Origin: a bacterium
Lineage (GTDB): Bacteria; JAHJDO01
Direction of reading: 5' to 3'
DNA: 28,153 nucleotides
Assembly: GCA_030611945.1 (NCBI GenBank)
Contig: JAUWOV010000011.1
Location: forward strand, 1 to 28,153
Below, piece after piece: positions 17,848-28,153 of this stretch. The notes under the pieces were generated by a model that worked only from the letters and a program-made list of their open reading frames with translations, had not been told where the DNA came from and ran no database searches. How positions within the stretch are numbered: position 1 is the stretch's first letter; each line of letters starts with the position of its first letter. Both the position numbers and the translations under genes were made by a program.

Positions 17848-17919
17848 ATGACAAAAACCATCACAAAACCAGAACAAAAAGCGTTGAAAGAATTCATAAA
17901 TAGGGAAAAACATGTCTGA
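17848..17919 (+). CDS. Possible 23-residue ORF overlapping the nuclease gene
   Basis: This ATG-to-TGA frame encodes a short basic peptide, MTKTITKPEQKALKEFINRE plus KHV. It begins 10 bases after the lipase-like stop and overlaps the start of the DUF1016 gene by 8 bases. No Shine-Dalgarno sequence is visible. It could be a leader peptide coupling translation into the nuclease gene, a remnant of a lost neighbour, or chance. Confidence 0.25.
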   Translation: MTKTITKPEQKALKEFINREKHV

Positions 17920-18943
17920 ACTTATATCAAAAAACACCAGCTTGCTTAAATCTCTCGTCAGTTTAATTGATAGTGCCCGTAGGCGAGTTGCAATTACGGT
18001 AAATTCAGAACTTACAATTTTATATTGGGAAATCGGGAATAAGATAAACAGAGATATCCTTCAGTATAAACGAGCTGATTACGGCAAACAGGTTATTGCC
18101 GAAATAAGTATTGAACTGGCATCAAGATACGGCAATAGTTTTAGCAAAAGAAACTTGCAGCATTTCGTGAAATTTAATTCTATCTTTTCTGATTTTGAGA
18201 TTGTGAACACACTGTGTACACAATTTAGTTGGTCTCATTTTAGAAGTTTATTAAGCATGAAAAGCAACTTAAAACGTGAATTTTATATACAAATGTGCAA
18301 ACATGAGAGGTGGTCTGTTAGAATTTTAAAGAACAAAATAGACAGTATGCTTTTTGAAAGAACCGCCATAAGTAAAAAGCCTGAGCAGACTATAATAAAC
18401 GAACTTAAACAACTTGAGGAAGAGAATCAAATAAGTCCTGATCTAACATTTCAAGACCCTTATATGCTTGATTTTCTTGGTTTAAAAAACACATACAACG
18501 AAAAAGATATTGAATCAGCTATATTGGTACATTTACAAAATTTCATTATTGAGCTTGGAACAGAATTTGCCTTTCTTGCCAGGCAGAAACGCATAATAAT
18601 TGATAACGAAGATTTTTATATTGACTTGTTGTTTTACCATCGTGGATTAAAAAGACTTATAGCCATTGACCTGAAACTTGATAAATTTAAAGCTGCATAT
18701 AAAGGACAGATGGAGCTTTATTTGCGTTGGCTGGAAAGAAACGAAATGAAAGCCAGCGAGAATAAACCTATCGGCTTAATTCTTTGCAGTGAGAAATCGC
18801 CGGAACAAATTAATTACCTCTCACTGGATAATAATGAGGAAATAAAAGTCGCTGAATATTTAACAAAATTACCGGAAAAGAAAATATTGGAAGAAAAATT
18901 AAATAAAGCTATTGCTCTGGCTCGGAACATGCTTAAAGAATAA
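17912..18943 (+). CDS. DUF1016/YhcG-type PD-(D/E)XK nuclease
   Basis: This 343-residue protein has two parts. The N-terminal DUF1016 domain (about 10-150) contains ILYWEIGNKI (36-45), YGKQVIAEIS (57-66) and FSKRNLQHFVKF (77-88). The C-terminal YhcG nuclease domain (about 175-325) has the PD-(D/E)XK core: Asp238 in DFYIDLLFYH, then D253-L-K255 in AIDLKLDKFKAAYKGQM. Most relatives have E-x-K where this one has D-x-K, which the fold permits. Homologues often sit beside type I restriction-modification genes or in defence and mobile regions, but no methylase, specificity or helicase gene is present here. The GT9 start follows the stop by 2 bases, so it is packed into an envelope-glycan operon. It looks like an acquired orphan; DNA-end processing or defence is inference. 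Confidence 0.9.
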   Translation: MSELISKNTSLLKSLVSLIDSARRRVAITVNSELTILYWEIGNKINRDILQYKRADYGKQVIAEISIELASRYGNSFSKRNLQHFVKFNSIFSDFEIVNTLCTQFSWSHFRSLLSMKSNLKREFYIQMCKHERWSVRILKNKIDSMLFERTAISKKPEQTIINELKQLEEENQISPDLTFQDPYMLDFLGLKNTYNEKDIESAILVHLQNFIIELGTEFAFLARQKRIIIDNEDFYIDLLFYHRGLKRLIAIDLKLDKFKAAYKGQMELYLRWLERNEMKASENKPIGLILCSEKSPEQINYLSLDNNEEIKVAEYLTKLPEKKILEEKLNKAIALARNMLKE

Positions 18944-23323: not shown

Positions 23324-24671
23324 AATAATACAAAGTATTTTTAAAATCTTCAGCCAGGCAGGGAAATCCATATATCTTGTTGGAGGGTCAGTGCGTGATA
23401 TATTAATGAAGAAACCTCTCAATGATTACGATTTTGCCACCTCTGCGACACCTCCTGAAATTATCAGGATTCTACGAAACGCAAGGATAAAAACATATCC
23501 TGTCGGCATAAATTTTGGAACGGTCGGCGCATTCATAAATCAGGTTGAACTGCATATTACAACGTTCAGGGAAAAGGAGACATACAGAGGTTTTAGCAGA
23601 AAACCGGATGTTGATTTCGGCGCCAATATAATGGAGGACTTAGCGCGCAGGGATTTTACAATAAATACAATGGCTGTAGGCGCCGACTCAAAAATAATTG
23701 ACCCATTTAAAGGAAGAGAAGATTTAGAACAAGGAATAATCAAAACTCCCAAAGATCCGGATTCTGCATTTGAAGATGATTCGCTGAGGATACTAAGAGC
23801 GTTAAGGTTTCAATCTCAGTTAGGATTTGAGATTGAAGAGAATACCCGCATATCATTGAGAAAGAATGCATTCAGGCTGCTGAATCTCTCAGGCGAGAGA
23901 ATAAGAGATGAGATGACTAAACTGTTACTTGGCAGTTATGCAGAAGCGGCATTGAAAAATCTAATGCAGGAAGAAGTAATCAACTACTTCATCCCGGAAC
24001 TTGTTCCTCTGAGAAACCTGCATGAAGACAGCCGGCTTCATCATAAGGACGTATGGATGCATACAATAAAAGTTGTTAATAATTGTCCTTTAGATGGAAA
24101 TATCAGATGGACTGCGCTGCTTCACGACATAGCGAAACCATATGTCAGAACAATAGATGAGAAGAATGTGCATTTTTACAGACATGAAGATTTAGGCGCT
24201 AAGATGGCATGGGGGATTCTTTCAAGGCTCAGATTCTCCAATCAGGACCTCAAGCACATATGCTTTTTAATCAGGAAGCATATGAGAGCAAATCTTTATA
24301 CTTCTCTATGGACAGACACTGCAGTGAGACGGTTTGCAGCTAAGATGGGAGACAAACTCTCAGATGTTCTCAGCATTTCTAAAGCGGATATAACATCATA
24401 CAGAAAGGAGAGAGTTGCTAAAAAGCTGAAAGAATTATCTGAGCTTGAGGAGAGATGCGAAAAATTACGTTCAGCAAAAAAAACCAAATTCCCAATTACT
24501 GGAGATGAGTTAATGGATAAATTCAAGCTTTCCCCATCTCGTTTAATAGGGAAAATGAAGAATAAGATACTTGAAGCTATTACAAATGAAGAATTGCCGG
24601 AGGATAGTAAGAATAAAGAAATATATTTTAAATACATTAAGAAGGCATTTAAGAAGGAACTTGGGATATAG
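23304..24671 (+). CDS. cca: CCA tRNA nucleotidyltransferase with HD domain
   Basis: This 455-residue class II nucleotidyltransferase adds or repairs the 3' CCA end of tRNA. The head carries IYLVGGSVRD (23-32) and the metal-binding DYD (41-43). GTVGAFINQVELHITTFR, LARRDFTINTMA and DDSLRILRALRF follow as the RRDFT, neck and body motifs. An HD phosphohydrolase domain lies behind it (RLHHKDVWMHTI, then ALLHDIAKP with His274-Asp275). It could alternatively be an A-adding enzyme or a poly(A) polymerase relative; the motifs alone do not separate these fully. It overlaps its neighbours on both sides (20 bases upstream, 1 base downstream), so it is translated inside the glycan cluster. Confidence 0.93.
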   Translation: MLKIEDRIIQSIFKIFSQAGKSIYLVGGSVRDILMKKPLNDYDFATSATPPEIIRILRNARIKTYPVGINFGTVGAFINQVELHITTFREKETYRGFSRKPDVDFGANIMEDLARRDFTINTMAVGADSKIIDPFKGREDLEQGIIKTPKDPDSAFEDDSLRILRALRFQSQLGFEIEENTRISLRKNAFRLLNLSGERIRDEMTKLLLGSYAEAALKNLMQEEVINYFIPELVPLRNLHEDSRLHHKDVWMHTIKVVNNCPLDGNIRWTALLHDIAKPYVRTIDEKNVHFYRHEDLGAKMAWGILSRLRFSNQDLKHICFLIRKHMRANLYTSLWTDTAVRRFAAKMGDKLSDVLSISKADITSYRKERVAKKLKELSELEERCEKLRSAKKTKFPITGDELMDKFKLSPSRLIGKMKNKILEAITNEELPEDSKNKEIYFKYIKKAFKKELGI

Positions 24672-25774
24672 TGCAAACCGTATTACACATAAACGCAGGT
24701 GAGGTTTGGAGCGGGATAGAGCAGAGAATATTAACTATCAGTAAACTTCTTCATAACAAAGAGTTTAATATAATTTTAGCTGTATCTCCATTAAGCCCAT
24801 TATATAAGGAAGCAGGTTCATATAATATCCCGTTATTGTCTCTTAAAGTAGGCAAATGGAAATTCAACCCGGCAGTTATATGGAAACTGGCACAATTTTT
24901 AAAGACTCATAAAGTCGATATCCTGCATACACACCGTTCGTCAGATCACTGGATTGGGGTGCTTGCTGTTAGATTATTTGGCTTGTCCGGTCAATGCAAA
25001 ATTATCCGCACACGCCATAATTTCACAAGAATAAAAAATAACCGGATAAACAATAAACTGTATATGGAATGGACAGATAGAATAATAGCAGTGGCTGAAG
25101 TAATAAAAAGACAACTGGTTGATGAAAATAACATTTCTGAGAATAAAATCATCACTATTCACAGTTCCATAGACATGGGAAAATTTAAGGGCGAGTTTGA
25201 TGGTAAGAAAATACGTAACGAGTTTGGAATCTCTACTGATACTGTGGTTTTAGGAATGATAGGAAGATTAAGAGAGCATAAAGATTACCCAAATATGCTC
25301 ACAACGCTAAAGATTATTATTGAAAAATTCAAGAATATTAAATTGCTGATTGTTGGAGATGGAATTCTGGAATCGCAGCTTAAAAGCATGGTTCAAAGAA
25401 TGGAATTAAGTAGTTATGTTATATTCGCAGGTAAAAGAGAAGATATCCCGCAAATCCTCTCAGGGATTGATATATTTGCGCTTTCGTCTTCTGTTGAAGG
25501 ATCTCCTGCTGTGATCAAGGAAGCTCTTATTATGGGAAAACCTGTTGTTTCAACTAATGTAGGCGGAATTCCTGAAATTATTCAAAACGGAATTACCGGC
25601 GTATTAGTTCCTCCTCATAATCCTGAAGCTTTAGCCAATGACATTTTTGATGTAATAAATAATAGAAATAAATTCTTGGAAATGGCAAGAAAAGGAAAAC
25701 AGGTTATCATTGATGAATTCTCGGAAACCAGACTTGCAGAACTGACAGCGGAGGTATATCAAGGACATGATTAG
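24671..25774 (+). CDS. GT4 glycosyltransferase
   Basis: This 367-residue GT-B enzyme starts at GTG, sharing one base with the cca stop (TAGTG). The N-terminal VLHINAGEVWSGIEQRIL holds the Gly loop, and DILHTHRSSDHWIG (about 90-103) lines the acceptor side. The C-terminal domain has LGMIGRLREHKDYPN and KLLIVGDG, and the EX7E motif E276-GSPAVIKE284 is followed by MGKPVVSTNVGGIPEII. This pattern is common in LPS and capsule assembly enzymes. Its sugar specificity cannot be read from the sequence. It overlaps the PAS-LuxR gene by 8 bases. Confidence 0.92.
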   Translation: MQTVLHINAGEVWSGIEQRILTISKLLHNKEFNIILAVSPLSPLYKEAGSYNIPLLSLKVGKWKFNPAVIWKLAQFLKTHKVDILHTHRSSDHWIGVLAVRLFGLSGQCKIIRTRHNFTRIKNNRINNKLYMEWTDRIIAVAEVIKRQLVDENNISENKIITIHSSIDMGKFKGEFDGKKIRNEFGISTDTVVLGMIGRLREHKDYPNMLTTLKIIIEKFKNIKLLIVGDGILESQLKSMVQRMELSSYVIFAGKREDIPQILSGIDIFALSSSVEGSPAVIKEALIMGKPVVSTNVGGIPEIIQNGITGVLVPPHNPEALANDIFDVINNRNKFLEMARKGKQVIIDEFSETRLAELTAEVYQGHD

Positions 25775-27074
25775 ATTAAAAAGAGCTGAGAAAGCTCTGC
25801 GTGAAAGCGAAGAAAGATATCGGCTCTTATTTGAAACCTCGCGCGACGCAATAATGACACTTGCTCCGCCGTCCTGGAATTTTACTTCAGGAAATGCTGC
25901 TGCGATTGAACTGTTCGGTATGAAAGATAAAAAAACGTTTATTTCCGCGCCTCCGTGGAAGTATTCTCCGGAGTTTCAGCCGGACGGACAATCATCTGCA
26001 GATAAAGCAAAAAAAATGATTGACACAGCAATGGAAAAAGGGTCAAACTTTTTTGAGTGGACGCACAAAAAGCTGAATGGCAGGGACTTCTTTGCAACCG
26101 TTTTGCTGACAAGAATAAGTATCGGAGAGAAAACCTTCCTGCAGGCGACAGTCAGGGATATTACTGAGCGAAAGAAGGTGGAAGAAGAATTAAAAAAGCA
26201 TCGTGAGCATCTTGAAGACATGGTTGAAAATCGCACAGCAGAACTTAAAAAGGAAATCGTTGAACGCAGGCAAGTGGAAAAATTATTGCGGGAAAGCAAG
26301 GAAAAGATACGAGCCATTCTTGATGCTAGTCCCGATGTAATACATCTGCTTGATATCAATGGAATCATTCTCTCTGCGAACGAAAGCTATGCAAAAAAAC
26401 TTGGCGTAGAGGTAAATGACATTGTTGGCAAAAACATTTTTGATTATACCCCCCCTGAATCAATACAGAAAAGAAAAGCTGTGATTGACAAGGTCTTCAG
26501 CACAGGTGAGCCGGTACAACTTGAAGATAAAGGAGTAGTTGGCGTATATGATGCGCATGTTCATCCTGTTCTTAATCCGGCTGGAGAAGTAGCAGCAGTT
26601 GCCGTTTATGCCAGCGACATTACCAAGCGCAAGCAGGCTGAGAAGGAGTTACAGGAACAAAAACTGAATTTGGAGCAAAAGAATATTGCTCTCAGCGAAA
26701 TCATAGCGCAAGTTGAAGTAGAAAAGAAAAAGATGAAAGATGATATAGCGGCTAATGTAAATGAATTATTGTTTCCGATTTTAGAAAAACTCAAATTAGA
26801 GAATGCTGCAGGTAAATATGTTGATTTACTCAAAACCCATTTAGAGGAATTAGTTTCTTCGTTTGGCCGTAAAATAAGAGGGAAAAGACTTAATCTAACT
26901 CCAAGAGAAATTGAAATCTGCAATATGATAAAAGGCAGGCTCACGAGCAAAGAAATTGCAGAGCTTTTGAATATTTCCTTGCAGACAATTGAAAAACACC
27001 GCAAGAATATCAGACGCAAAATGGGAATATCCAAAAAAGATATTAACCTAACTTCCTTTCTTCAGGTCATTTAA
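25767..27074 (+). CDS. PAS-PAS-LuxR regulator without kinase or receiver
   Basis: This 435-residue cytoplasmic protein has a first PAS domain (about 12-135), a coiled coil (about 133-180), a second PAS domain (about 180-290), a helical region (about 290-370, KKMKDDIAANVNELLFPILE) and a LuxR-type helix-turn-helix (about 374-430, LTPREIEICNMIKG, SKEIAELLNIS, TIEKHRKNIRRKMGI). No histidine kinase, receiver or membrane segment is present, so signals would reach DNA directly through the PAS domains. A ligand, redox or light input is possible but not shown. Proteins of this layout are frequent orphan regulators in Desulfobacterota-like genomes (recalled). GGAGG (25750-25754) lies 12 bases before the ATG, inside the upstream GT gene. 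Control of the surrounding glycan genes is inference. Confidence 0.9.
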   Translation: MIRLKRAEKALRESEERYRLLFETSRDAIMTLAPPSWNFTSGNAAAIELFGMKDKKTFISAPPWKYSPEFQPDGQSSADKAKKMIDTAMEKGSNFFEWTHKKLNGRDFFATVLLTRISIGEKTFLQATVRDITERKKVEEELKKHREHLEDMVENRTAELKKEIVERRQVEKLLRESKEKIRAILDASPDVIHLLDINGIILSANESYAKKLGVEVNDIVGKNIFDYTPPESIQKRKAVIDKVFSTGEPVQLEDKGVVGVYDAHVHPVLNPAGEVAAVAVYASDITKRKQAEKELQEQKLNLEQKNIALSEIIAQVEVEKKKMKDDIAANVNELLFPILEKLKLENAAGKYVDLLKTHLEELVSSFGRKIRGKRLNLTPREIEICNMIKGRLTSKEIAELLNISLQTIEKHRKNIRRKMGISKKDINLTSFLQVI

Positions 27075-27075
27075 C

Positions 27076-27092
27076 GGGTATTTTATATACCC
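27076..27092 (+). terminator. Short hairpin after the PAS-LuxR stop
   Basis: GGGTAT (27076-27081), loop TTTAT, then ATACCC (27087-27092), begins one base after the stop codon. There is no T-run behind it, so a classical intrinsic terminator is not supported. It may stabilise the mRNA end or act as a weak pause. Confidence 0.3.
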
Positions 27093-27150: not shown

Positions 27151-27972
27151 ATGAAACTTTCTGATCTCATGCAGAAGGAACTGGTTCTTCTTGATCTTTC
27201 ATCCGAAAAAAAAGAAGACGCAGTCAAAGAGCTAATATCTCCAATCATAAAAAAAGGACTTGCCCTTTCAGAAGAGACACTGAGTAAAGCTATTTTAGAT
27301 AGAGAAGCGCGCGGCAGTACTGCAATAGGGAACGGGGTTGCTATCCCACATGCGGAAACATCTTCTATTAAAGAAAAAATTATTGTTTTTGGAAGATCAA
27401 AAAAAGGCATAAACTTTGATGCAGTTGATAATAATCCTGTCCATCTTTTCTTTATGATTATTTCTCCAAGCAGAGAAATTTGTCCGCACTTGAAAACTCT
27501 GGCCAGAATATCACGCCTTCTTAAAAATAAAGCTTTCAGGGATGATTTGATGAGCGCTAAGTCTTCAGAAGACATAATAAAACTAATTGCTATAGAGGAA
27601 AACCCTCCTGCGGAAAGAAGAAAATATCCGCGGTATGCCGTTGATGAAGCTGTTGAGTTAAGATTGCAAAAAGATTCGGAAAAACATCTGGTTGTATACT
27701 ATGGCTATACAAAAGATATAAGCCTTGGTGGGATATGTATAACGCTACCAAAGCATGAGGATACAAATGACTCCAGAATAAAAGAAGATATAAAACTTCA
27801 AATAAGAATTCCTGTGTTGGATGTCAAAAAATATTTAGAATTAGATGGACAGATAGTCTGGATCTTACAGAGAAAAAAAGATTACAATATTGGGATACAA
27901 TTTATCTCAAACGATAAGGAAGCAGAAACCGCTCTTTCTCGATTTATTGATGAAGTAAAAACCTCTTCTTAA
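27151..27972 (+). CDS. PTS EIIA-Ntr-like domain fused to a PilZ domain
   Basis: This 273-residue protein joins two signalling domains. About 1-147 is a PTS fructose/EIIA-Ntr-type domain: REARGSTAIGNGVAIPHAET with the phosphorylatable His67, then HLKTLARISRLLKNKAFRDD (113-132). About 154-270 is a PilZ domain with both c-di-GMP-binding motifs: RxxxR as R157-KYP-R161 and D/NxSxxG as D189-I-S191-LG-G194, followed by QIVWILQRK and NIGIQFI. The first domain would be phosphorylated by HPr or NPr; the second would sense c-di-GMP. No EI, HPr, EIIB or EIIC gene is in the window. No Shine-Dalgarno sequence is seen before the ATG, which sits in a TA repeat. The role is inferred to be linking PTS phosphorylation state to c-di-GMP-controlled surface functions. 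Confidence 0.92.
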   Translation: MKLSDLMQKELVLLDLSSEKKEDAVKELISPIIKKGLALSEETLSKAILDREARGSTAIGNGVAIPHAETSSIKEKIIVFGRSKKGINFDAVDNNPVHLFFMIISPSREICPHLKTLARISRLLKNKAFRDDLMSAKSSEDIIKLIAIEENPPAERRKYPRYAVDEAVELRLQKDSEKHLVVYYGYTKDISLGGICITLPKHEDTNDSRIKEDIKLQIRIPVLDVKKYLELDGQIVWILQRKKDYNIGIQFISNDKEAETALSRFIDEVKTSS

Positions 27973-28028: not shown

Positions 28029-28057
28029 TTGACCAAATTAGTACTTGTCTATACAAT
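28029..28057 (+). promoter_or_regulatory. Predicted sigma70-type promoter, near-leaderless start
   Basis: TTGACC (28029-28034) and TACAAT (28052-28057) each match the consensus at 5 of 6 bases, with the ideal 17-base spacer. The predicted transcription start, near 28064, is only about 3 bases before the ATG at 28067. No Shine-Dalgarno sequence precedes that ATG. This is a sequence-only prediction. Confidence 0.55.
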
Positions 28058-28066
28058 GACGCTGCT

Positions 28067-28153
28067 ATGAAAAAGCCAGTTAGAATTCTCCGCATAGTCC
28101 CTTCTCTTGAAATGGGTGGTGTTGAAAGAACACTGACATCCATACTTCCAAGA
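28067..28153 (+). CDS. GT4 glycosyltransferase, N-terminal fragment cut by the window edge
   Basis: 29 codons run open to the last base of the window. The N-terminus MKKPVRILRIVPSLEMGGVE, followed by RTLTSILPR, has the beta-strand plus Gly-Gly acceptor loop typical of GT4 enzymes (I-x-PSLxxGGxER). The truncation is an edge artefact, not a broken gene. It would be the third GT4 gene in this region, apparently driven by its own promoter. Confidence 0.72.
   Translation, partial: MKKPVRILRIVPSLEMGGVERTLTSILPR

Follow-up and report, generated by a model that had tools for sequence, protein, structure and literature searches.

A PTS EIIA domain and a PilZ domain joined in one conserved bacterial protein: a possible meeting point of phosphotransferase status and c-di-GMP

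Few control signals are as widespread among bacteria as the state of the phosphotransferase system (PTS) and c-di-GMP, and the locus described here raises the question of whether both could be read by a single chain. The gene concerned (27151..27972, + strand; ATG start, 273 aa) lies in the window, that is, the whole stretch of 28,153 nucleotides under analysis, which represents the entire contig C59 of genome G000 (1.66 Mb, 119 contigs). This genome is one of five, all from a single genus, that made up our sample of the phylum. In the initial annotation the product was taken to be a fusion of an EIIA-Ntr domain with a PilZ domain.

A two-domain protein with intact key residues

At the local base composition, an open frame as long as ORF 27151-27972 would arise by chance with a probability of ~6e-10, and the frame is therefore not a chance one. 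A profile search, the check that had been proposed for the two domains, scored both halves in Pfam. The first half (residues 6-146; 27166..27588, + strand) matched PTS_EIIA_2 (PF00359) with 133.8 bits against a cut-off of 27 (5.7e-39), and the second (residues 155-267; 27613..27951, + strand) matched PilZ (PF07238) with 62.8 bits against a cut-off of 22.5 (4.2e-17).

The residues singled out in the initial annotation also proved correct. In the alignment with 1a6j, the phospho-acceptor His67 (27349-27351, + strand), found in the context VAIPHAE, falls on the IPH of E. coli IIANtr, while His113 aligns with the second active-site His, and both histidines are invariant in six proteins. In the PilZ half, RxxxR (R157/R161) and DxSxxG (D189/S191/G194) are both complete; RxxxR and D/NxSxxG are the c-di-GMP motifs of PilZ proteins (PMC3131395). 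His67, RxxxR and [D/N]xSxxG are retained by every one of the phylum's six intact EIIA-PilZ proteins, with the second PilZ motif more diverged (NVSPDG) in the orthologue of G003. A chance PilZ match was ruled out by the score over the Pfam cut-off and the conservation of both motifs, and a frameshift or assembly artefact by the presence of the fusion in five genomes. From its sequence, then, the ORF is confirmed as encoding a real two-domain protein, EIIA plus PilZ, with its predicted key residues intact. The fold and the domain geometry rest on Pfam, since a profile sequence search of the PDB matched no solved PilZ structure to the PilZ half and a structure prediction of the fusion from single-sequence input reached a pLDDT of 35.

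The name given to the first half requires a small correction. Both domains of the annotated fusion stood, but the EIIA-Ntr label was too narrow, as the EIIA half stayed below the NCBIfam PtsN equivalog cut-offs (90 vs 221 bits; 86.5 vs 138.7 bits). It passed the fructose-IIA subfamily model TIGR00848 (110.9 bits vs a cut-off of 103.5), and its nearest solved structures are those of PtsN (6.1e-22), with mannitol EIIA at 3.9e-7. Judged by these models, it is best called a fructose/Ntr-type EIIA, not strictly EIIA-Ntr. The half shares with PtsN/EIIANtr (1a6j) the PTS_EIIA_2 fold family and the aligned phospho-His and second His, whereas it differs in carrying a PilZ domain, in failing the PtsN cut-offs and in belonging to a genome whose EI scores as the PtsI type and has no GAF domain.

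Distribution, conservation and related fusions

Full-length EIIA-PilZ is encoded in five of the five sampled phylum genomes. A second intact copy in the window genome, a paralogue on contig C68, is located ~7 kb from a cellulose-synthase-like GT2, and there is a third copy on contig C88 (L020:10949-11797, - strand) in which the EIIA is intact and the PilZ half has decayed through stops and frame changes. In the tree of the PilZ half, the five syntenic EIIA-PilZ orthologues are grouped together (support 99/98) and the C68 paralogue falls outside. Pairwise dN/dS was ~0.17-0.23 for the EIIA half and mostly 0.19-0.30 for the PilZ half, with one close PilZ pair of very low dS giving 0.6; both halves are under purifying selection, with dN/dS ~0.2. 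Between the window and G004, dS was 0.075 in the PilZ half (27613-27969) and 0.376 in the EIIA half, a contrast that may reflect recombination or gene conversion.

The initial annotation knew of no characterised protein with this architecture, and we likewise found no EIIA-PilZ fusion described in the open-access literature (InterPro entries and subscription papers lying outside that scope). A 2022 review (PMC8846402) describes PTS domains as rare in c-di-GMP signalling proteins and lists EIIA_1 and EIIC; the word PilZ is absent from it. Outside the phylum, 380 diverse genomes searched at E 1e-34 and 398 genomes of one other phylum searched at E 1e-38 yielded no EIIA-PilZ chain, thresholds that divergent fusions would escape; 54 of the 380 yielded none at E 1e-3 either. 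Searching from the PilZ side revealed no EIIA-PilZ chain in other phyla, none of 320 plasmid records covered 80% of the EIIA-PilZ query, and the GTDB 220 contig collection, scanned with the fusion, yielded only a distant EIIA. Ten long frames with EIIA matches were inspected as possible hidden PilZ fusions: the six scanned with Pfam, including one from within the phylum, had HTH, CBS or zinc ribbon partners and no PilZ, and the remaining four were set aside on inspection by eye.

The assumption that EIIA of this family normally stands alone was not supported, for its members are also found fused to HTH domains, CBS domains and amino-acid permeases. Relatives in the phylum carry EIIA joined to HTH domains and at the C-terminus of amino-acid permeases (L126:1813-3660, - strand; L127:662-2545; L128:1984-3846, - strand). 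EIIA fusions to HTH, CBS and permease are common, and it is the PilZ partner alone that is new.

The PilZ half, for its part, belongs to a subfamily that G000, G002 and G004 also couple to a Ser/Thr kinase (L019:1984-3138; L020:12510-13688, - strand; L078:11410-12600, - strand; L079:5633-6823, - strand), near EIIA-PilZ in C68 and C88. A small HTH_17-type gene follows the kinase-PilZ gene in L020, L078 and L079, and an apparent broken remnant of such a gene precedes it in L019. The window genome also encodes a PilZ domain ahead of an ABC-transporter ATPase (L022:5258-6394; ABC_tran 7.8e-33), an FHA-PilZ protein (L026:766-1749, - strand) and a PilZ-flavodoxin-like protein (L027:2781-3737). Being joined to kinase, ABC ATPase, FHA and flavodoxin, PilZ serves as a plug-in module in this lineage.

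Gene neighbourhood and candidate control sites

The neighbours were as the initial annotation had claimed, with a PAS-LuxR regulator upstream and glycosyltransferases on both sides. The conserved upstream neighbour is a PAS-PAS-LuxR (GerE) regulator gene (25767..27074, + strand), whose start overlaps by 8 bp the preceding gene for a GT4-family glycosyltransferase (24671..25774, + strand), likewise a conserved neighbour; downstream, only the start of another GT4 glycosyltransferase gene (28068..28153, + strand) is present before the contig end cuts it. The order PAS-LuxR, EIIA-PilZ, GT4, second PilZ gene, FxsA and GT4 is shared by G002, G003 and G004. A GT4 gene precedes PAS-LuxR in G002, G004 and the window, the contig of G003 beginning inside PAS-LuxR, while in G001 the PAS-LuxR gene upstream of EIIA-PilZ is kept and the downstream order differs. 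Further genes in the window are those for a GT9 heptosyltransferase, another GT4 and a polysaccharide deacetylase, along with an AsmA/YhdP-like one. A gene for a YhcG/DUF1016-type PDDEXK nuclease (17912-18943) separates a lipase-like gene from the glycosyltransferase cluster.

Just past the LuxR stop, upstream of the fusion gene, we found the palindrome GGGTATTTTATATACCC (27076..27092), which occurs exactly in a single place each in G000, G002 and G004 and with one change at that place in G001 and G003. The 65-bp stretch between PAS-LuxR and the fusion gene that contains it is 71-94% identical between genomes. The palindrome may act as an operator bound by the neighbouring LuxR protein, or else form a 3'-end or attenuator RNA hairpin. 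On the other side of the fusion gene, a promoter-like TTGACC-17-TACAAT (28029..28057, + strand) with 10/12 consensus matches stands before the next glycosyltransferase gene; the region overall has no excess of such matches over shuffles, and both hexamers are identical across four aligned genomes. With such a site in front of the following gene, co-transcription of the fusion gene solely with this downstream neighbour is improbable, and the arrangement suggests that it ends its own transcription unit.

Possible workings of the fusion and its wider meaning

Could the cell supply both signals? A cluster on contig C108 of the window genome contains a stand-alone EIIA, an HPr kinase C-terminal domain, HPr and EI, together with a TPI gene and a ribosome-hibernation-type gene (both identified by eye). 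The EI has three PEP-utiliser domains only, without a GAF domain, and scores as the PtsI type, below the PtsP cut-off. A search limited to the PF02378 family turned up no PTS_EIIC permease in the five phylum genomes, and owing to this absence the phosphoryl chain is probably regulatory. There are seven GGDEF matches in the genome, with GGEEF read in at least two. Both signalling systems are therefore encoded in the window genome, as an EI-HPr-HPr kinase-EIIA chain and as GGDEF diguanylate cyclases. The retention of the fusion in all five phylum genomes implies that a single molecule may combine the two signals, and the integration of PTS status and c-di-GMP in one chain, as first proposed, is plausible on the domain content of the protein.

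The reading we favour, to which we give an even chance, is that the fusion serves as a cytosolic two-input switch, open in both directions, within a surface-polysaccharide locus. HPr~P would phosphorylate His67 in proportion to the supply of PEP, since a chain without PTS permeases would be regulatory only, and c-di-GMP would bind the RxxxR hinge right after the short linker. By analogy with the N-terminal domain of YcgR/VCA0042-type receptors, binding may re-orient EIIA against PilZ; in YcgR, the domain rotates around the ligand when c-di-GMP is bound (PMC3131395). The combined phosphorylation and c-di-GMP state would then set which partner the fusion binds, and gene order points to surface polysaccharide synthesis as the likeliest output, through either the neighbouring glycosyltransferases or PAS-LuxR.

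Two one-way schemes, which we judge jointly to be a serious possibility somewhat short of probable, have to be weighed against this. The first, unlikely when taken by itself, leaves the sensing to PilZ alone and gives the EIIA half the part of a PTS-interaction output, so that c-di-GMP hides or exposes EIIA and thereby tunes phosphoryl flow, the exposed domain accepting phosphate from HPr or binding PTS targets. It fits the several EIIA domains that compete for one HPr in the window genome and the Ser/Thr kinase with the same PilZ subfamily, where PilZ would likewise be an input to a phosphotransfer domain, but it leaves the conserved glycosyltransferase neighbourhood unexplained. That neighbourhood speaks for the second scheme, as do the window's genes for a polysaccharide deacetylase and an AsmA/YhdP-like protein and the additional PilZ gene that relatives carry two genes downstream. 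In this scheme the target of PilZ is the polysaccharide machinery or another partner, and phosphorylation of EIIA gates PilZ, envelope synthesis following the PEP supply. Here c-di-GMP binding may be secondary; yet the c-di-GMP motifs are kept in six of six copies, suggesting that ligand binding matters, and we hold this scheme to be rather improbable. That the fusion is a neutral duplication product, its domains joined without joint function, is very hard to credit: PilZ modules are indeed mobile in the phylum genomes and the C88 paralogue has a decayed PilZ after an intact EIIA, but the full-length fusion persists in all five genomes, each half is under purifying selection, and the upstream non-coding sequence is conserved.

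The two-input switch would have relatives among known systems on either side. Its N-terminal domain, short linker and PilZ with RxxxR and D/NxSxxG recall YcgR/VCA0042-type PilZ receptors, but EIIA takes the place that PilZN/YcgR has in those proteins; contig C111 of the window genome encodes a YcgR-like protein apart from the fusion. As in the regulatory PTS, the window genome has a stand-alone EIIA beside HPr, HPr kinase and EI, and no PF02378 permease was detected in the phylum genomes. With the HTH-EIIA, CBS-EIIA and amino-acid permease-EIIA proteins, of which the phylum itself also has the HTH and permease types, it shares the use of EIIA as a regulatory plug-in, but here the partner is a c-di-GMP receptor domain.

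A functional precedent is that of V. cholerae, in which EIIAGlc controls the c-di-GMP phosphodiesterase PdeS (PMC6877527), a case also covered in PMC8846402. PTS phosphorylation state is there tied to c-di-GMP signalling and biofilm, through protein-protein contact with a c-di-GMP-degrading enzyme, whereas the present protein has its EIIA and a c-di-GMP receptor domain in one chain. The known link identified in this analysis, EIIAGlc-PdeS, uses separate proteins, and EIIA-PilZ would join both in one chain.

More broadly, we put forward as a tentative idea that the phylum uses single-chain logic gates of this kind throughout, combining a permease-less PTS with c-di-GMP, together with sister chains of the same PilZ subfamily and Ser/Thr kinase; a single c-di-GMP module would then be attached to different phospho-signalling domains in order to set surface polysaccharide. 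The sister Ser/Thr kinase-PilZ chain provides a matched comparison for EIIA-PilZ, and the fusion itself would allow the link between PTS and c-di-GMP to be tested directly with one small soluble protein.
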